From a virus, in the IMG/VR virus record IMGVR_UViG_3300007734_000608, positions 1-34,341 of that record: DNA of 34,341 nucleotides; one strand, written 5' to 3'. The stretch's first letter is position 1; every line of letters starts with the position of its first letter. Under the pieces are notes generated by a model. It saw only the letters and a list, made by a program, of their open reading frames with translations, ran no database searches and was not told the DNA's origin. This document shows positions 4,298 through 34,341 of this stretch, piece after piece. The translations under genes and the position numbers were made by a program.

Positions 4298-4350
4298 AAA
4301 AGTCAATCTCATGGCAACTATCAATGAAACCCCAACTTAAAGGAATTTCA

Positions 4351-6492
4351 GTGCCCATCTTAACTGAAACACCCCTGCCAGATACATTTAGCCAGTCGCA
4401 GTCTGTCGCCTGCAAAATAGGCACTGTCGCGCCTGATGCAGTCTTCTGCACCTTTGCCCTACAGGGCAGTAAGAAAATCCCCTACAAGCGAAGCGGCCAA
4501 GGTGTGGCCCGTGACACTGACCCAACAGACCTTTACAACGCTGAAGACATCTGGGCCATGGAGTCATGCCCTCATGGCCAGTATTTTGGCCTGGTCCAGC
4601 AGCGCCCCATCATCAGCGCATCAGGAAACTTTCTGGTTTGCCTTGATGTGGACATGAAGCACGCAAGTGGACCCACCAATGTGGCCATCCAGCGCATGGC
4701 CAAGTACGTCAAACAAAACAAGATGCTGACCGAGGTCTCTGTCTCAGGCCGTGGCCGTCATGTCTTCTTATGGGTCTCACCACCCAAAGAAGCTGACCAG
4801 GTGCTACCCAAGTACAAGCTAGGCGGTGGCCAAGAGTTAGAAGTATTTGGCCTGCCAAACAGTGCCGGCAAGTCAGTGTTACTCAGTGGCAATGCGGTGG
4901 TCGGTGAATTCCAAGAGGCCGTGGACCTTTATGCTTTATTACAAGACTGGGGCATCATCGAGCAGCACCAGCTCCAAGAGCCAAAGCCTGCTGCACCACC
5001 CAGCCAATCATTTGACTTCACCCAATTAGGCTCAAGGATTGATGACAGCGATCTTGATCGCGCCATCAAGGCTTTGCACCATATTTCCCCAGACTGCGAC
5101 TATGAGCAGTGGATCGAACTGGGCCAAGCGCTGCATACAGAATTCGGGGAAGCAGGTCTCGGCCCATGGATGACATGGTCCATGGCTGGCCAGAAGTACC
5201 AAGGCACAAAAGACATTGAAGTCCACTGGAAGAGCTTTCACCAGGGCAAAGGCGTAGGGCTTGGCACACTCTTCAAACACGCCAAGGATTGTGGCTATGA
5301 GCCGCCAACCAAGCAGACCGAGCGCAAGTCAGCCGTGGAAGACTTTGCAGCCGTGATCAGTCAGGCCCAATCACCAGTCACAGAAGACGCGCCAGACCCG
5401 TCATGGCCAGAGCTTGCCTTAGACCTGACAAAGCTCAACTTCATCGACTACCTGATCGAAGGCTTCATGGCCCACAGCTTCTTTATCTTGGCCGGTCAGC
5501 CTGGCGTGGGTAAGACCACAGCGGTCCTGTCCATGTGCATGATCATGGCTGGGTTTAATGTGGAAGGCTGCGAGATACATTCAAAGACCAGGCGCAAGTC
5601 GATTATCGTGACTGAAGATAGTGACCAGATAATCCGAACATTATTCGCATATTCAAAGCATTACAAAATAAATAATCTGAATGACTGGTTTGTGGTTATT
5701 GATGCCAGAAGGTCTAATGTCAAAGACTTATTAAGGCTTGCCCATAATATCGAGCGCCACACTGTTAATGGCATTAAGCCATTATTAGTTTTAGACACGG
5801 CCAATGCCACCATGGATATTGATAACGAGAATGACAACTCAGAAGTTGGCAGCTTTATTGCCGCCATCAAGCAGACCATCTTCATTCAGCAAAAAGCCCC
5901 AGTCTGCATCCTGACCCACACAAACAAGACCATCAGCCGGCAAGACTCCGATGCCATGGCCCGTGGCGCTTCTGCCTTTACAGGTGACGCAACCCTGACA
6001 GGCGTGCTTTTCATGGATGAGGATAACCAGCGCTACCTAAAGCTGACCAAAACGCGCTACGAGCCACAATTCAGAGAGATCAAGTTCGACTCCATCACAT
6101 TTCCAGAAATAGTCATAACCCCAGCTGGTGATCTGCAAGAGATTATTTGCAGGGTGGCCATTCCAGCCATGTCGTCAGAACAAGACCGAATGGCCGCCAA
6201 GCAGTCCCAACAAGACAGTGCCAAAGAACAGCGCATCCAAGACAAGTGCGATGAGGTCTGCAACCATGTCCAGTCCATCATCAATGACAAAGGCAGCGTC
6301 ATCATGCGCAGAGGACCAGGCAGGCCCGTTGTGCCAAAAGAACTCCAAACCGCCTACCAACTAGACTGGACTGAGATATTCAGCAGCGTCAAAGGCTCAG
6401 ATGCAGGCTATATCCGCAAGCACATTGGCACGGCCATCTTCACCAGATTCGCGCCAAACGAGCCACTGTCAGGCTGGGTGAGACTCGCATGA
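4351..6492 (+). CDS. Primase-polymerase / RepA-like helicase fusion, replication initiator candidate
   Basis: A 713-residue protein. Residues about 25-200 form an archaeo-eukaryotic-type primase: metal-binding LDVDMK (99-104), SGRGRH (132-137) and QELEVFG (161-167). Residues about 232-315 match a PriCT_2 domain. Residues about 360-590 are a RepA/AAA_25-type hexameric helicase with Walker A GQPGVGKT (382-389), Walker B LLVLDTAN (478-485) and sensor-like THTNK (522-526). I chose GTG 4351 because AAAGGAA sits 5 bases upstream; ATG 4324 (9 residues longer) lacks a site. This layout is known from plasmids and prophage replicons. Iterons and DnaA boxes begin 6 bases after its stop, supporting a role in initiation. 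The stretch 5600-5830 is more AT-rich than the rest. Confidence 0.85.
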   Translation: MPILTETPLPDTFSQSQSVACKIGTVAPDAVFCTFALQGSKKIPYKRSGQGVARDTDPTDLYNAEDIWAMESCPHGQYFGLVQQRPIISASGNFLVCLDVDMKHASGPTNVAIQRMAKYVKQNKMLTEVSVSGRGRHVFLWVSPPKEADQVLPKYKLGGGQELEVFGLPNSAGKSVLLSGNAVVGEFQEAVDLYALLQDWGIIEQHQLQEPKPAAPPSQSFDFTQLGSRIDDSDLDRAIKALHHISPDCDYEQWIELGQALHTEFGEAGLGPWMTWSMAGQKYQGTKDIEVHWKSFHQGKGVGLGTLFKHAKDCGYEPPTKQTERKSAVEDFAAVISQAQSPVTEDAPDPSWPELALDLTKLNFIDYLIEGFMAHSFFILAGQPGVGKTTAVLSMCMIMAGFNVEGCEIHSKTRRKSIIVTEDSDQIIRTLFAYSKHYKINNLNDWFVVIDARRSNVKDLLRLAHNIERHTVNGIKPLLVLDTANATMDIDNENDNSEVGSFIAAIKQTIFIQQKAPVCILTHTNKTISRQDSDAMARGASAFTGDATLTGVLFMDEDNQRYLKLTKTRYEPQFREIKFDSITFPEIVITPAGDLQEIICRVAIPAMSSEQDRMAAKQSQQDSAKEQRIQDKCDEVCNHVQSIINDKGSVIMRRGPGRPVVPKELQTAYQLDWTEIFSSVKGSDAGYIRKHIGTAIFTRFAPNEPLSGWVRLA

Positions 6493-6497
6493 TCAGT

Positions 6498-6549
6498 CTA
6501 ATGCGGAAAGGCGGAACTAATACGGAACTAATACGGAATTCCGTATTAG
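6498..6549. repeat. Iteron cluster: four 11-base CTAATRCGGAA units, last two forming a palindrome
   Basis: Copies of CTAATRCGGAA lie at 6498-6508, 6517-6527, 6528-6538 (plus) and 6539-6549 (minus). The last two abut and make a perfect 22-base palindrome centred on an EcoRI-like GAATTC. The first copy is followed by AGGCGGAA, which is repeated after the copy at 6634. More copies lie at 6634-6644 (+), 6668-6678 (-) and 6779-6789 (+). Repeated sites right after a RepA-like gene resemble plasmid iterons; operator function is the alternative. Confidence 0.8.
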
Positions 6550-6567
6550 ACAATGGCAGGGATTGTT

Positions 6568-6601
6568 GGATAAGTAGGGTCGTTAGACCTACTTATCCAC
6601 A
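6568..6601. other. Hairpin with a DnaA box on its right arm
   Basis: GGATAAGTAGG (6568-6578) and CCTACTTATCC (6588-6598) form a perfect 11-base stem with a 9-base loop. The right arm runs into an exact DnaA box TTATCCACA at 6593-6601. No T-run follows. A structured site in the putative origin is a reasonable reading. Confidence 0.6.
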
Positions 6602-6630
6602 GACCAGTCACGGCTTGGAAGGTACTTCAG

Positions 6631-6681
6631 TTTCTAATGCGGAAAGGCGGAAAATTCCTTAAGGGCTTTCCGTATTAGAAA
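6631..6681. repeat. Long inverted iteron pair
   Basis: TTTCTAATGCGGAAAG (6631-6646) and CTTTCCGTATTAGAAA (6666-6681) are inverted with a single mismatch across 16 bases. The arms contain the 11-base iteron unit (6634-6644 and 6668-6678). The intervening 19 bases include AATTCCTTAAGG. This pair belongs to the same repeat family as 6498-6549. Confidence 0.75.
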
Positions 6682-6712
6682 CGAGCATTAGATGGTCCAA
6701 CACAAAGGAAAG

Positions 6713-6732
6713 TTATGCACAGGTTATCCACA
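6713..6732 (+). other. Two adjacent DnaA boxes
   Basis: TTATGCACA (6713-6721) and TTATCCACA (6724-6732) are exact matches to the bacterial DnaA box TTATNCACA, spaced by two bases and overlapping the start of the next gene. With the box at 6593-6601 they form the first DnaA-box group beside the iterons. Confidence 0.75.
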
Positions 6733-7035
6733 ATTATTGAAATGGTCGAAGATGAGCGCGTTTTCTGCCATCAATGCGCTAATGCGGAAATGGTAGAGCA
6801 GCGCCAGTCGATGCCAGCAGAGCAGATGGAAAGGCACAGGAAGGTCAACGCAAAGCCACTACAGTGGATGTTTGACCAGGCAAAGATTAAAGGTGGATGG
6901 GCAACCATCACATGGTCCGAACACCAGTGCGCGAAAACCGGACTGGCAGCCTTTCCGACCGATGTCAAACACCGATGCCATATGTTCCAGACCAAAGCCT
7001 CGGCAGTAGAATCCGAGGAATGGTGGTTGACTTAA
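6715..7035 (+). CDS. Cys-rich small protein, possible zinc binder
   Basis: A 106-residue protein with two Cys clusters: FCHQCANAEM (residues 18-27) near the N-terminus and CAKTGLAAFPTDVKHRCHMF near the C-terminus. The CxxC...C...CxxF spacing resembles small metal-binding proteins common in phages, but I know no assigned function. A strong ribosome site (AAAGGAAAG) precedes ATG 6715. The start codon itself lies inside a DnaA box, and an iteron copy lies at codons 22-25, so the gene's 5' end is part of the putative origin. It overlaps the following nuclease gene by 16 bases. Confidence 0.6.
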   Translation: MHRLSTIIEMVEDERVFCHQCANAEMVEQRQSMPAEQMERHRKVNAKPLQWMFDQAKIKGGWATITWSEHQCAKTGLAAFPTDVKHRCHMFQTKASAVESEEWWLT

Positions 7036-7403
7036 AGCGCAAAAGAAAAAGCATTGAACACATTGACCAGGTCAAGGTGGTCCAGCACTTCCGAGCGTTT
7101 TATCCGGATGTCATCATTGCAGCAATACCCAATGGAGGCGATAGAACGGCCTCAGAGCGCGTCAGATTGCACAGCGAAGGGGTATTGGCAGGGATGCCGG
7201 ATTTATGCGTCTTAGAGCCTAAAAACGGGTTTCATGCGTTATTTGTGGAGATGAAGACCAAGGCCGGTGTGGTTTCAAACAAGCAAAGCGCTGTAGGTTT
7301 GCAGTTAAATGCAAAAGGGTACATGGCAGTGGTCGCCAGATCAGCTGCCGAAGCAATCAAAACAATCGAGGAGTATCTGAATGGCGAGAAACACATTGGC
7401 TGA
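7020..7403 (+). CDS. VRR-NUC domain nuclease
   Basis: A 127-residue protein that matches the VRR-NUC family (PD-(D/E)XK fold, Holliday-junction-resolvase-like). Key features are IPNGGDRT, GMPDLCVLEP with the metal-binding Asp, FVEMKTKAGVVSNKQ with the E-x-K pair, and a helix with the conserved Gln. I chose ATG 7020 because the longer frame upstream (to 6897) lies inside the previous gene and looks non-native. GAGGA directly abuts the start, so initiation may depend on coupling. It probably cleaves branched or flap DNA during phage replication or packaging. It overlaps the small terminase gene by 23 bases. Confidence 0.85.
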   Translation: MVVDLKRKRKSIEHIDQVKVVQHFRAFYPDVIIAAIPNGGDRTASERVRLHSEGVLAGMPDLCVLEPKNGFHALFVEMKTKAGVVSNKQSAVGLQLNAKGYMAVVARSAAEAIKTIEEYLNGEKHIG

Positions 7404-7884
7404 AATGGCCGACCAAGGCGCTGTCAACATCTTGGCAGCACAAGCAAAGAAGGCTGAGATCAGCGTGGCCAACAAGGCCATTCACAAGTTTGGCGGTGAA
7501 GATGCCATCCTCGAATTCATTGCCAGTGGCGGCACAATCTCCGCGCTGTGCAAGGTATTAGGGGTGGGGAATACGACCTTTGACAGATGGGTCGAGAGAG
7601 GCGGTGAGGCACGCAAGGCCGCATACGCACGCGCACGCACGCGAGCAGCACAAAGTTTAGCAGAACAAACCATCGACATTGCAGACGCGGCCACCATCCA
7701 AGAGGTGCAGCTGGCCAAGCTACGCTGTGACAGGCGTGCGTGGCTAGCCAGCAAGCTCTCTGAGGAGTTCTCAGACAAGCAGCAACCCCTGGTCAACATC
7801 GACCTTGGAAGCATGGCGCTCGATGCCCTGCGCAAGCGCAGCATCGTATCAATAGACACTTTGACGGATATGAATACCAAATGA
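7381..7884 (+). CDS. Terminase small subunit
   Basis: A 167-residue protein with an N-terminal helix-turn-helix (GGTISALCKVLGVGNTTFDR, residues about 49-68) followed by a helical region (ARARTRAAQSLAEQTIDIAD, about 80-100) typical of phage small terminases that recognise the packaging site. The C-terminus is Leu/Asp-rich. It precedes the large terminase by about 1 kb, with four small genes and a DnaA-box region between them. The family assignment rests on the HTH-plus-helix pattern and the position. Confidence 0.75.
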   Translation: MARNTLAEMADQGAVNILAAQAKKAEISVANKAIHKFGGEDAILEFIASGGTISALCKVLGVGNTTFDRWVERGGEARKAAYARARTRAAQSLAEQTIDIADAATIQEVQLAKLRCDRRAWLASKLSEEFSDKQQPLVNIDLGSMALDALRKRSIVSIDTLTDMNTK

Positions 7885-7916
7885 TTCAGTCACTTTATAC
7901 AACGACCATTATGTTA

Positions 7917-8131
7917 AGTGGATAACTCGTTATCCACAGAATTAAGTGCATTAAAGTATTACAAGCCTAGTTATGCACAGGAATCTGTGGATAAGGTTGG
8001 CCAAAATCCGTGGATAACCCCGCGGTGGCCGGCTGGCGGTCGGTGGCCGCGACCCCCCCCTTGGCCGGCTTGGCGGGGGCGACTGTGGCGGCACTAAACA
8101 CCTACAAAAAAAATTTTTTAAAAAAATTTTG
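7917..8131. other. oriC-like region: DnaA-box cluster, GC-rich spacer and AT-rich block
   Basis: This gene-free stretch after the small terminase holds DnaA boxes at 7930-7938 (TTATCCACA), 7971-7979 (TTATGCACA), 7986-7994 (TGTGGATAA, minus) and two 8-of-9 matches at 7917-7925 and 8009-8017 (both minus). GTGGATAAC (7918-7926) and GTTATCCAC (7929-7937) form a perfect inverted pair. A GC-rich stretch follows (about 8020-8095), then a run of about 27 A/T bases (8105-8130), like a DNA-unwinding element. This is the classical order of parts of a bacterial chromosomal origin. Function is inferred. Confidence 0.7.
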
Positions 8132-8137
8132 CACTAG

Positions 8138-8167
8138 TTGACATAAAACGCAAAAAGCACCGACAAT
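8138..8167 (+). promoter_or_regulatory. Candidate sigma70-type promoter for the packaging/structural block
   Basis: A perfect -35 hexamer TTGACA (8138-8143) is followed 18 bases later by GACAAT (8162-8167), a 4-of-6 match to TATAAT. It sits 30 bases ahead of the first of a series of overlapping rightward genes starting at 8197, and just after the AT-rich block. A plausible promoter for the terminase and later genes. Confidence 0.5.
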
Positions 8168-16127: not shown

Positions 16128-17675
16128 ATGGCTATTGTTAGCAATACATTCCTGACTTACTCTGCAAAGGGTATTCGGGAAGATTTGAGCAATGTGATTA
16201 CAAACATTGCTCCAGAAGAGACACCTTTCATGTCCAATATTGGCCGTGAAAATGTGTCTAACACTCTGTTTGAATTCCAAACAGATACACTTGCCGCAGC
16301 TGCTGCCAATGCACAGCTTGAGGGCGATGATGTCGGCACTTTTGATTCAGTGGTTGCCACTGTTCGAGTGCAGAACTACTGCCAAATCAGCCGCAAGACT
16401 ATTGTCTTGTCAGCGACTGAAGAGGTGGTAAACAAGGCAGGCCGTAGAAGCGAATTGGCGTTAACTTTGCATTGAAGCGCCCTTATTCGGTAACGAATAA
16501 AGAAAAACTAGGTGAATTGCTGGAAACCCTTGAGAGCTTGATACACCACAACATAGCCCGAAAGAGCAAGTGTGAAGGTCCAAAAAGAATCAAGATTAGG
16601 CAATCAGCAGCCAAGCGCCTTAAAAGGTGAAGGTTCAACGACTAGGGAGTAATCCCGTAGGACTAAGTGGTCCGAAGTGCCTAGCCCCAGAAATGGGTGA
16701 AGATATAGTCTGATCTTGCATGAGAGTGCAAGCCTCGAAAGAGGGTCAGGAAGATAACGAGTCCTGGCAAACAAATATGACCAAATTGCAAAGCGTGGCG
16801 CTGAAATTAAGCGCGATCAAGAATTCTCCATGCTCAATGGCGCTATCGCCAATGCTGGTGATTCTACAACTGCCCGTACTACGGCCTCTTTGGGCGCGTT
16901 TGTGAAAACAAACACCGACAAAGGCACTAGCGGTGTTGATCCATCTTACACAACGCTGCCAAACAGCGCCCGTACAGATGGCACAGTTCGCACATTTACT
17001 GAGACCATTCTTAAGAATGTGATTCAGAAGGTGTGGACATCTGGTGGTACACCTAAGATTTTGATGTGCGGTCCTGTTAACAAGCAGCGCGTGTCAGGTT
17101 TCTCTGGTATTGCTTCTAGCCGTTTCAACATTGATGGAGGTGCAAAGCCTGCAACCCTAGTGGGTGCGGTCGATATCTACGTTAACTAATGGCGTCGATA
17201 AGCAGTAATGCTTATTTGTAACTAGGTGAATTCGGTGAACCTCCTAACTGTCAAGCCGGACAAAGGACAATACCGAGCCAAGCCGAGAAATCGGAAGGTG
17301 TAACGACTAGGGGTGGGAACCCCGTAGGACCAAGCGGTCCGAAGTGCCTAGCCCCTCATAATGAGGGTGAAGAGATAGTCTGATCTACCAGGTAACTGGT
17401 AGCCTCGAAAGAGGGATGAGAAGGTAGCGAGTCTCATTTAACATTGATGCAGTGATTTCGGCAATGTGCAAGTGATTGCAAACCGCTTCCAGCGTGAGCG
17501 CGATGCGTTTGTGCTTGACCCTGACTACGCTAAGATGACTGTGCTGCGCCCTTACCAGCAAATCGAATTGGCGAAGACAGGCGATGCCGATAAACGACTT
17601 TTGATCGTCGAATTTGGATTGAAAGTGTTGGCGGAAAATGCCCATGGTCTGGCAGCAGACTTGGTTACTTCTTAA
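16128..17675 (+). CDS. Major capsid protein, split by two group I introns
   Basis: The gene is in three exons: 16128-16461, 16780-17182 and 17450-17675. Joined, they give a 320-residue protein of the SU10/DUF5309 capsid type (HK97-like fold). Exon 1 ends in SELA; splicing joins it to YQIAKRGAEIKRD, exactly the family's expected sequence. Exon 2 ends VDIYV and joins SDFGNVQVIANRF. Both junctions restore the frame, and both intron starts follow a U that pairs with G in the intron guide. Unspliced, exon 1 reads into a stop at 16475. A strong ribosome site (GAGGAAATT) precedes ATG 16128. Read separately, the exons would give three unrelated short ORFs. Confidence 0.9.
16462..16779 (+). ncRNA. Group I intron 1 in the major capsid gene
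   Basis: A 318-base intron without an open reading frame for a homing endonuclease. P1 pairs exon GGCGU with intron GCGCC (U-G at the splice site). A P2-like hairpin TTATTCG-GTAA-CGAATAA follows. The core has ACGACTAGGG, hairpins GGGA/UCCC and GGACU/GGUCC, CCGAAGTGCCTAG, and AAGATATAGTCTGATC (P7 side), as in T4 td-type introns. Hairpins CTTGCA/TGCAAG, CCTCGAAAGAGG and CAGGA/TCCTG lie near the 3' end. It ends in ATG, with the terminal G as omega-G. Confidence 0.9.
17183..17449 (+). ncRNA. Group I intron 2 in the major capsid gene
   Basis: A 267-base intron without an endonuclease frame, closely related to intron 1. P1 pairs exon AUCUACGU with intron GCGUCGAU (one mismatch, terminal U-G). The P2-like hairpin is ATAAGCA-GTAA-TGCTTAT. 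The core repeats ACGACTAGGGG, now with GGGG/CCCC and GGACC/GGUCC stems, compared with GGGA/UCCC and GGACU/GGUCC in intron 1. CCGAAGTGCCTAGCCCC and AGAGATAGTCTGATC are nearly identical. The 3' end shows CTACCAG/CTGGTAG, CCTCGAAAGAGG and ATGAGA/TCTCAT, then ends GATG. Confidence 0.9.
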
Positions 17676-33990: not shown

Positions 33991-34341
33991 TCACTGACCA
34001 AAAAACGCGGCCACAAGTGGGTCGCGTTTCACGACCCGTCTTTTCTGTCTACGTCTGGCAGCGTCAAAGTCTTTGTCGTCTGCACTCATCTTCTCGCGGT
34101 GTTTCTTGATGCGCTCAGAGCCTGGCACTGGCCCAGGCGCTATGGCATCTTCACCATCCCCCCAAGACCACAGAGGCCGCCACTGGCCATTTGCATGGAC
34201 CTTGGTGAATCCTGAGATGTGGACCAGATCATGGCGGTGCAAGTCAAACAAGATTCGCGCTGCACTGCGCCTGGCACAAAAGCACAGCTTGGCCAAGTCC
34301 ACATCAGACAGATTGCCTTTCTTTTGTAGTGCCGCCTCAAT
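33991..34341 (-). CDS. Winged-helix-like DNA-binding protein, right copy (partial)
   Basis: The minus-strand frame runs from the window edge to TGA at 33991 and encodes about 116 residues, nearly identical to the left copy (99-485): one Glu/Asp change (WSWGDGE against WSWGEGE) and a final Gln instead of Gly. The N-terminal about 12 residues lie beyond the window. It is convergent with the ejection-protein gene, separated by no spacer, and shares the embedded terminator of the left copy. Confidence 0.85.
   Translation of the reverse strand: MEAALQKKGNLSDVDLAKLCFCARRSAARILFDLHRHDLVHISGFTKVHANGQWRPLWSWGDGEDAIAPGPVPGSERIKKHREKMSADDKDFDAARRRQKRRVVKRDPLVAAFFGQ
33991..34341. repeat. Right copy of the diverged terminal direct repeat
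   Basis: Matches 99-449 with no gap (offset 33892). The two flanks differ: here the repeat abuts the end of the ejection-protein gene; at the left end it abuts a leftward partial gene. The copy is cut by the window end. Confidence 0.9.
34000..34029 (-). terminator. Terminator in the right copy, between convergent genes
   Basis: The same hairpin as at 108-137: arms AAACGCG and CGCGTTT around an inner GTGG/CCAC pairing, followed on the minus strand by six Ts (34005-34000). Here it stands between two convergent genes and would stop leftward transcripts before they enter the ejection-protein gene. Confidence 0.6.

Follow-up and report, generated by a model that had tools for sequence, protein, structure and literature searches.

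Two precisely spaced DnaA-box groups in a family of uncultured freshwater phages: a possible two-part, DnaA-assisted initiation region

Is the group of DnaA boxes behind the small terminase gene of this virus a copy of a bacterial chromosome origin, or does it serve the phage in another way? A preliminary description of the locus had favored the first reading, on the ground that a GC-rich spacer and an A/T run follow the boxes. The window, that is, the whole stretch of DNA analyzed here, is a near-complete but not closed IMG/VR virus record of 34,341 bases. Treatment of the record as a closed circle was rejected because the ORF that would span the junction is missing the N-terminal part found in its homologues. 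The record end cuts through a conserved small DNA-binding-like protein (33991-34341 plus the start of the window), which indicates that the record is not closed.

A scan of both strands for the exact DnaA box TTATNCACA revealed sites at 6593, 6713, 6724, 7930, and 7971 on the plus strand and at 7986 on the minus strand, and no other in the window. A first-order Markov model predicts 1.13 such sites, so six represent an excess, and all six are confined to 1.4 kb (6593-7994). The preliminary description had placed all six exact sites in this interval against about one expected by chance, and the exact scan that it proposed bears this out, with a clustered and not a uniform distribution. One-mismatch sites showed no overall enrichment across the window (32 seen, 29 expected); the signal therefore lies in the exact, clustered sites. 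These fall into cluster 1 (6497-6789) and cluster 2 (7917-8017), the latter being the reported site. In 161 related loci, which are partly redundant, TTATCCACA was counted 511 times and TTATGCACA 112 times, whereas the counts for permuted 9-mers had a median of about 4 and did not exceed 46. It is this conservation in relatives that makes the case for a predicted DnaA-box signal. Cluster 2 and the genes before it are arranged as follows.

6897-7403, plus strand: VRR-NUC nuclease gene, between clusters 1 and 2
7381-7884, plus strand: Sf6-like small terminase gene, immediately before cluster 2
7917-7925, minus strand: imperfect DnaA box TTATCCACT, one mismatch, least conserved of the five (column identity 0.78)
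7930-7938, plus strand: exact DnaA box TTATCCACA, column identity 0.96, next plus-strand box invariably 41 bp on
7971-7979, plus strand: exact DnaA box TTATGCACA, column identity 0.95, first half of the opposed pair
7980-7985: GGAATC gap of the opposed pair, 6 bp long in all 77 cores and reading GGAATC in 66
7986-7994, minus strand: exact DnaA box TTATCCACA, column identity 0.97, second half of the opposed pair
8009-8017, minus strand: third minus-strand box TTATCCACG, one mismatch, column identity 0.88

The five boxes correspond to the three exact and two 8-of-9 matches within about 100 bases that had been described (exact at 7930+, 7971+, and 7986-; one mismatch at 7917- and 8009-). Relatives were gathered by small-terminase and primase-helicase searches, which yielded well over 100 related viral contigs. 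With one mismatch allowed per box, the order box(+), 41 bp, box(+), 15 bp, box(-) is kept in 77 of the 78 nonredundant relatives that have the cluster, and in 53 of 77 cores a third box lies at +10, +23, or +24. Mean column identity among the 78 relatives was 0.95 to 0.97 in the three core boxes compared to 0.70 between boxes. The perfect inverted pair singled out earlier, GTGGATAAC-TC-GTTATCCAC, is present at 7918-7937 of the window but is not conserved, being exact in just 9 of the 78. These results confirm cluster 2 as a real, conserved cluster of predicted DnaA boxes.

Box offsets are fixed in about 100 related contigs, with cluster 1 after the primase gene and cluster 2 after the small-terminase gene. 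The earlier observation that two DnaA groups flank the nuclease and small terminase genes thus extends across the family. In 24 complete or near-complete records, most exact boxes lie in the two clusters, with at most two or so per record elsewhere. Among 80 nonredundant loci spanning both places, exact boxes occur in both clusters in 61, in cluster 1 only in 15, and in cluster 2 only in 4; none of the 80 lacks exact boxes at both. A search for the 24-bp cluster-2 core found it in 114 stretches of IMG/VR; 98 newly added stretches were checked, of which 92 adjoin a small terminase and 6 lie beside other genes of the same phage family. The sequences thus define a family of uncultured freshwater phages that keeps two precisely spaced groups of predicted DnaA boxes. 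A cultured close relative was not found in plasmid and phage collections. Acidimicrobium was considered as a host and set aside, as this label came from one MAG contig only and was judged not reliable.

Type B relatives have no cluster-2 boxes, and four loci (L010, L040, L049, and L055) carry other iteron dialects after the primase gene and lack exact boxes at cluster 1; neither box set is therefore universally needed. Three of these four loci have the palindrome TATGCACACATATGTGTGCAT after the primase gene. Record G002 (L213, L214, and L301) has a cluster-2 core close to each of its two ends, the two in opposite orientation, which is probably an artifact of assembly.

The resemblance to a bacterial chromosomal origin depends on the sequence that follows the boxes.

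8036-8105: GC-rich element (C-run ... GGGGGCGACTGTGGCGGCACTAAACACCTAC), noncoding, possibly packaging or regulatory
8106-8130: A/T run of 25 nt, upstream promoter element or unwinding site
8138-8167, plus strand: promoter-like TTGACA-18-GACAAT, right after the A/T run

The GC-rich spacer and the A/T run are both present as described, except that the run measures 25 nt (8106-8130) and not 26 to 27. It is the longest in the window and lies inside the 30-bp stretch of lowest stability (at 8102). Every phage of the family retains the GC-rich element, with or without cluster-2 boxes. The A/T tract, too, accompanies the GC-rich block in type B relatives, where it is followed by TTGACA-16-CATAAT. The stretch just upstream of a TTGACA-like promoter is the position of an upstream promoter element. 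As the A/T run persists without the boxes and precedes a promoter-like site, it is not clearly a DnaA unwinding element. The data do not support the reading of the site as a copy of oriC in which the A/T run serves for unwinding: both blocks persist without boxes, the run lies just upstream of a TTGACA-like element, and the strongest origin signals (iterons, GC-skew minimum, and the matching C-terminal part of the primase-helicase) are at 6497-6789. In folding, the GC-rich element does not exceed its shuffled versions (z 0.7), and as it also lacks a terminator and an Rfam match, a structured RNA or terminator was rejected there. A serine resolvase gene just after the GC-rich/A-tract element was seen only in phages without cluster 2 (L160, 966-1634; G015-G017).

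Cluster 1 lies just downstream of the primase-helicase stop codon and combines iterons, two boxes in tandem, and a hairpin with a DnaA box at its end.

4324-6492, plus strand: primase-helicase of 722 aa with PriCT_2, an AAA_25 RecA-like helicase, and a probable AEP N-terminus
6498-6549: iteron set 1, CTAATNCGGAA, at 6498+, 6517+, 6528+, and 6539-
6567-6599: hairpin TGGATAAGTAGG/CCTACTTATCCA, overlapping a DnaA box
6593-6601, plus strand: exact DnaA box TTATCCACA at the hairpin end
6634-6678: iteron set 2, at 6634+ and 6668-, inside a 17-bp inverted repeat
6713-6732, plus strand: tandem DnaA boxes TTATGCACA (6713) and TTATCCACA (6724), 11 bp apart
6779-6789, plus strand: iteron inside the following ORF

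The window holds seven 11-bp iterons CTAATNCGGAA (6498, 6517, 6528, 6539, 6634, 6668, and 6779). In the genomes checked, iterons are confined to cluster 1, and the same scan detected none in cluster 2. In other phages the same places are occupied by other iteron words (GTAATNCGGTA, GTAAANCGGTA, TCGAGGATACC, and others), and the DnaA boxes are kept by most. The hairpin (6567-6601) shows compensatory changes at 3 of 12 pairs and a fold z score of -4.6 against shuffles; the DnaA box overlaps the 3' arm of its stem and reaches 2 nt past it. By these sequence features, cluster 1 looks like the main origin.

PriCT_2 and AAA_25 were found in 34 of 34 primase-helicase proteins; none of the 25 families listed for these proteins was D5/Primase_Cterm or DUF927. 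A PDB sequence search with the primase-helicase returned only marginal NrS-1 primase matches (E about 0.1). The dialect comparison was restricted to pairs more than 85% alike in the N-terminal part and more than 80% alike in VRR-NUC; in these pairs, which are not independent, identity over residues 626 to 722 was 91% when the iteron dialect was the same (548 pairs) and 54% when it differed (857 pairs). The exonuclease, N-terminus, VRR-NUC, and small terminase were equal between the two pair groups. Recognition of the iterons by the C-terminal part of the primase-helicase would predict this covariation, and the swappable repeats probably match the phage's own primase-helicase. The C-terminus and the iterons are adjacent, so they could also have been swapped together without functional coupling.

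In 18 of 22 genomes, no more than about 0.5 kb separates the cumulative GC-skew minimum from the end of the primase gene; in the remaining 4 the minimum lies inside that gene, farther upstream. In most of the 22 it is thus at or just before cluster 1 and not near cluster 2. Third-position skew in same-strand genes changes from about -0.2 in the primase to about 0 in the nuclease and small terminase and to +0.2 to +0.35 in the large terminase, and it is also negative in the SNF2 and exonuclease genes. This switch fits replication starts in the interval from primase to large terminase, and such skew can also follow transcription. A search of the 22 genomes for three domains, Bac_DnaA_C, DNA_pol_A, and DNA_pol3_alpha, detected none of them, which suggests that host proteins are needed. 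A phage-encoded DnaA was discarded as a candidate, as no DnaA C-terminal domain was found in the 22 genomes.

For these observations we propose, at roughly even odds, that host DnaA binds at the reported, conserved site, and that this site serves as the auxiliary half of an initiation region made of two parts. It is probably a helper element and not a copy of a bacterial chromosome origin. The primase-helicase would bind the dialect-specific iterons of cluster 1 (6497-6789) through its C-terminal part, and host DnaA would bind the cluster-1 boxes, one of them at the hairpin foot, helping to open the DNA and to recruit the replisome. At 7930-8017, the opposed boxes with their rigid spacing would carry DnaA in an auxiliary complex that assists or replaces cluster 1. 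Host DnaA binding, origin activity, and the auxiliary role of cluster 2 are the parts of this model that we infer. A two-part origin had been suggested before, and as a DnaA-assisted origin it is a good reading, given the two conserved groups on either side of the VRR-NUC and small terminase genes. The packaging and replication switch offered there as the alternative may also apply. A search of part of the literature for DnaA boxes and host DnaA in phage genomes gave no match.

Cluster 2 lacks iterons and lies upstream of a promoter-like site, so a role in regulation is possible, and control of the downstream late genes is a serious rival, even if we consider it unlikely on balance. DnaA at 7917-8017 would then modulate the promoter at 8138-8167, with the A/T run as its upstream element. 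The TTGACA-18-GACAAT motif directly after the run and the comparable arrangement of A/T tract and TTGACA-16-CATAAT in type B relatives agree with this, and the E. coli uvrB promoter is reported to be regulated by DnaA (PMC6015884). However, the boxes lie 120 to 220 bp upstream of the promoter, the window has a weak -10 element, conservation of the promoter stretch is poor (0.58), and the four relatives with boxes at cluster 2 but none at cluster 1 point to replication. Coupling of packaging to replication, with the boxes as part of a packaging start, would suit a site directly after the small terminase gene and a GC-rich element conserved in all types; this appears very improbable to us, because contig breaks are scattered, with none clearly at the site, and the GC-rich element is independent of the boxes.

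The opposed boxes also allow a DARS-like function, in which they would pair ADP-DnaA, release the ADP, and raise ATP-DnaA for the phage origin. The very rigid geometry and the orientation of one box against those after it, as in DARS1 and DARS2, favor this function (PMC5742627, PMC8682772). In the E. coli cores, read from MG1655, the gap measures 5 bp, the opposed boxes start 14 bp apart, and the third box follows after 12 bp. Cluster 2 has a gap of 6 bp and its third box at 10, 23, or 24 bp and not 12, and an IHF-like site with at most one mismatch was not found between 7435 and 8438. That these phages carry a DARS-like element recharging host DnaA to fire an iteron origin, itself run by a primase-helicase of exchangeable specificity, is improbable, as is the DARS-like function as such. 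If it were true, a virus would adjust the nucleotide state of the host initiator with DNA alone. Several near-consensus boxes on a would-be high-copy genome might mainly titrate DnaA away from the host origin in the manner of datA, but titration needs neither exact spacing nor a conserved GGAATC gap, and we consider this very unlikely.

The two-part, DnaA-assisted arrangement can be compared with known systems. SaPI Rep uses its C-terminal domain to bind iterons situated immediately 3' of its own gene (PMC7581432), the origins of PICIs are found 3' of pri-rep (PMC6092414), and in pRN1 the candidate origin is located downstream of orf904 (PMC4234260). The SaPI/PICI Rep or Pri-Rep systems with their origins resemble the present locus in array position, a primase-helicase or Rep helicase gene being followed directly 3' by iterons, and perhaps in iteron recognition by the C-terminal part, for which covariation is the evidence here. 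They differ in that the helicase here is RecA-like (AAA_25) and not of the DUF927 or D5/Primase_Cterm type, that conserved DnaA boxes are interleaved with the iterons, and that this is a complete phage with its own structural genes. Iterons and DnaA boxes occur together in iteron plasmids such as RK2, pSC101, and P1 oriR (PMC4980987), and in plasmid P1 the DnaA boxes form two arrays, of which one can make up for the other (PMC4980987). In contrast to these plasmids, the second box array here is 1.2 kb away across two genes, and no winged-helix Rep initiator was detected among the proteins scanned, a subset of the ORFs.

Cluster 2 shares with the DARS1 and DARS2 cores a box I opposed to boxes II and III (definition in PMC5742627) but not their common spacing, the opposed boxes lying 15 bp instead of 14 bp from start to start. 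With bacterial oriC it shares a cluster of predicted high-affinity DnaA boxes near an A/T-rich block; here, however, that block is kept independently of the boxes, and the strongest origin signals are elsewhere. The hairpin at 6567-6601 resembles the A-site of the ABC primosome (PMC6127211) in that it carries a putative DnaA box. The primase-polymerase of phage NrS-1 likewise has an AEP-type N-terminus fused to a helicase, with a marginal sequence match (E about 0.1) and no significant homology in the PDB sequence search. The nearest deposited phage, Caudoviricetes sp. ctjtQ328 (MW202879), has a primase-helicase 53% identical and a cluster 1, but no cluster 2; a serine resolvase occupies that place.

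If the two-part reading is true, these widespread freshwater phages join two initiation systems that are usually apart in phages, namely, their own primase-helicase with swappable iteron specificity and host DnaA, and phage replication would be tied to host cell-cycle control. The paired domain and iteron dialects would then provide a natural test of initiator specificity and also of the replication compatibility of coinfecting phages.

Away from the two clusters, two group I introns (16452-16732 and 17173-17402) scored above the Rfam gathering score. They lie among the structural genes, on the downstream side of the scaffold gene, and probably interrupt a capsid gene.
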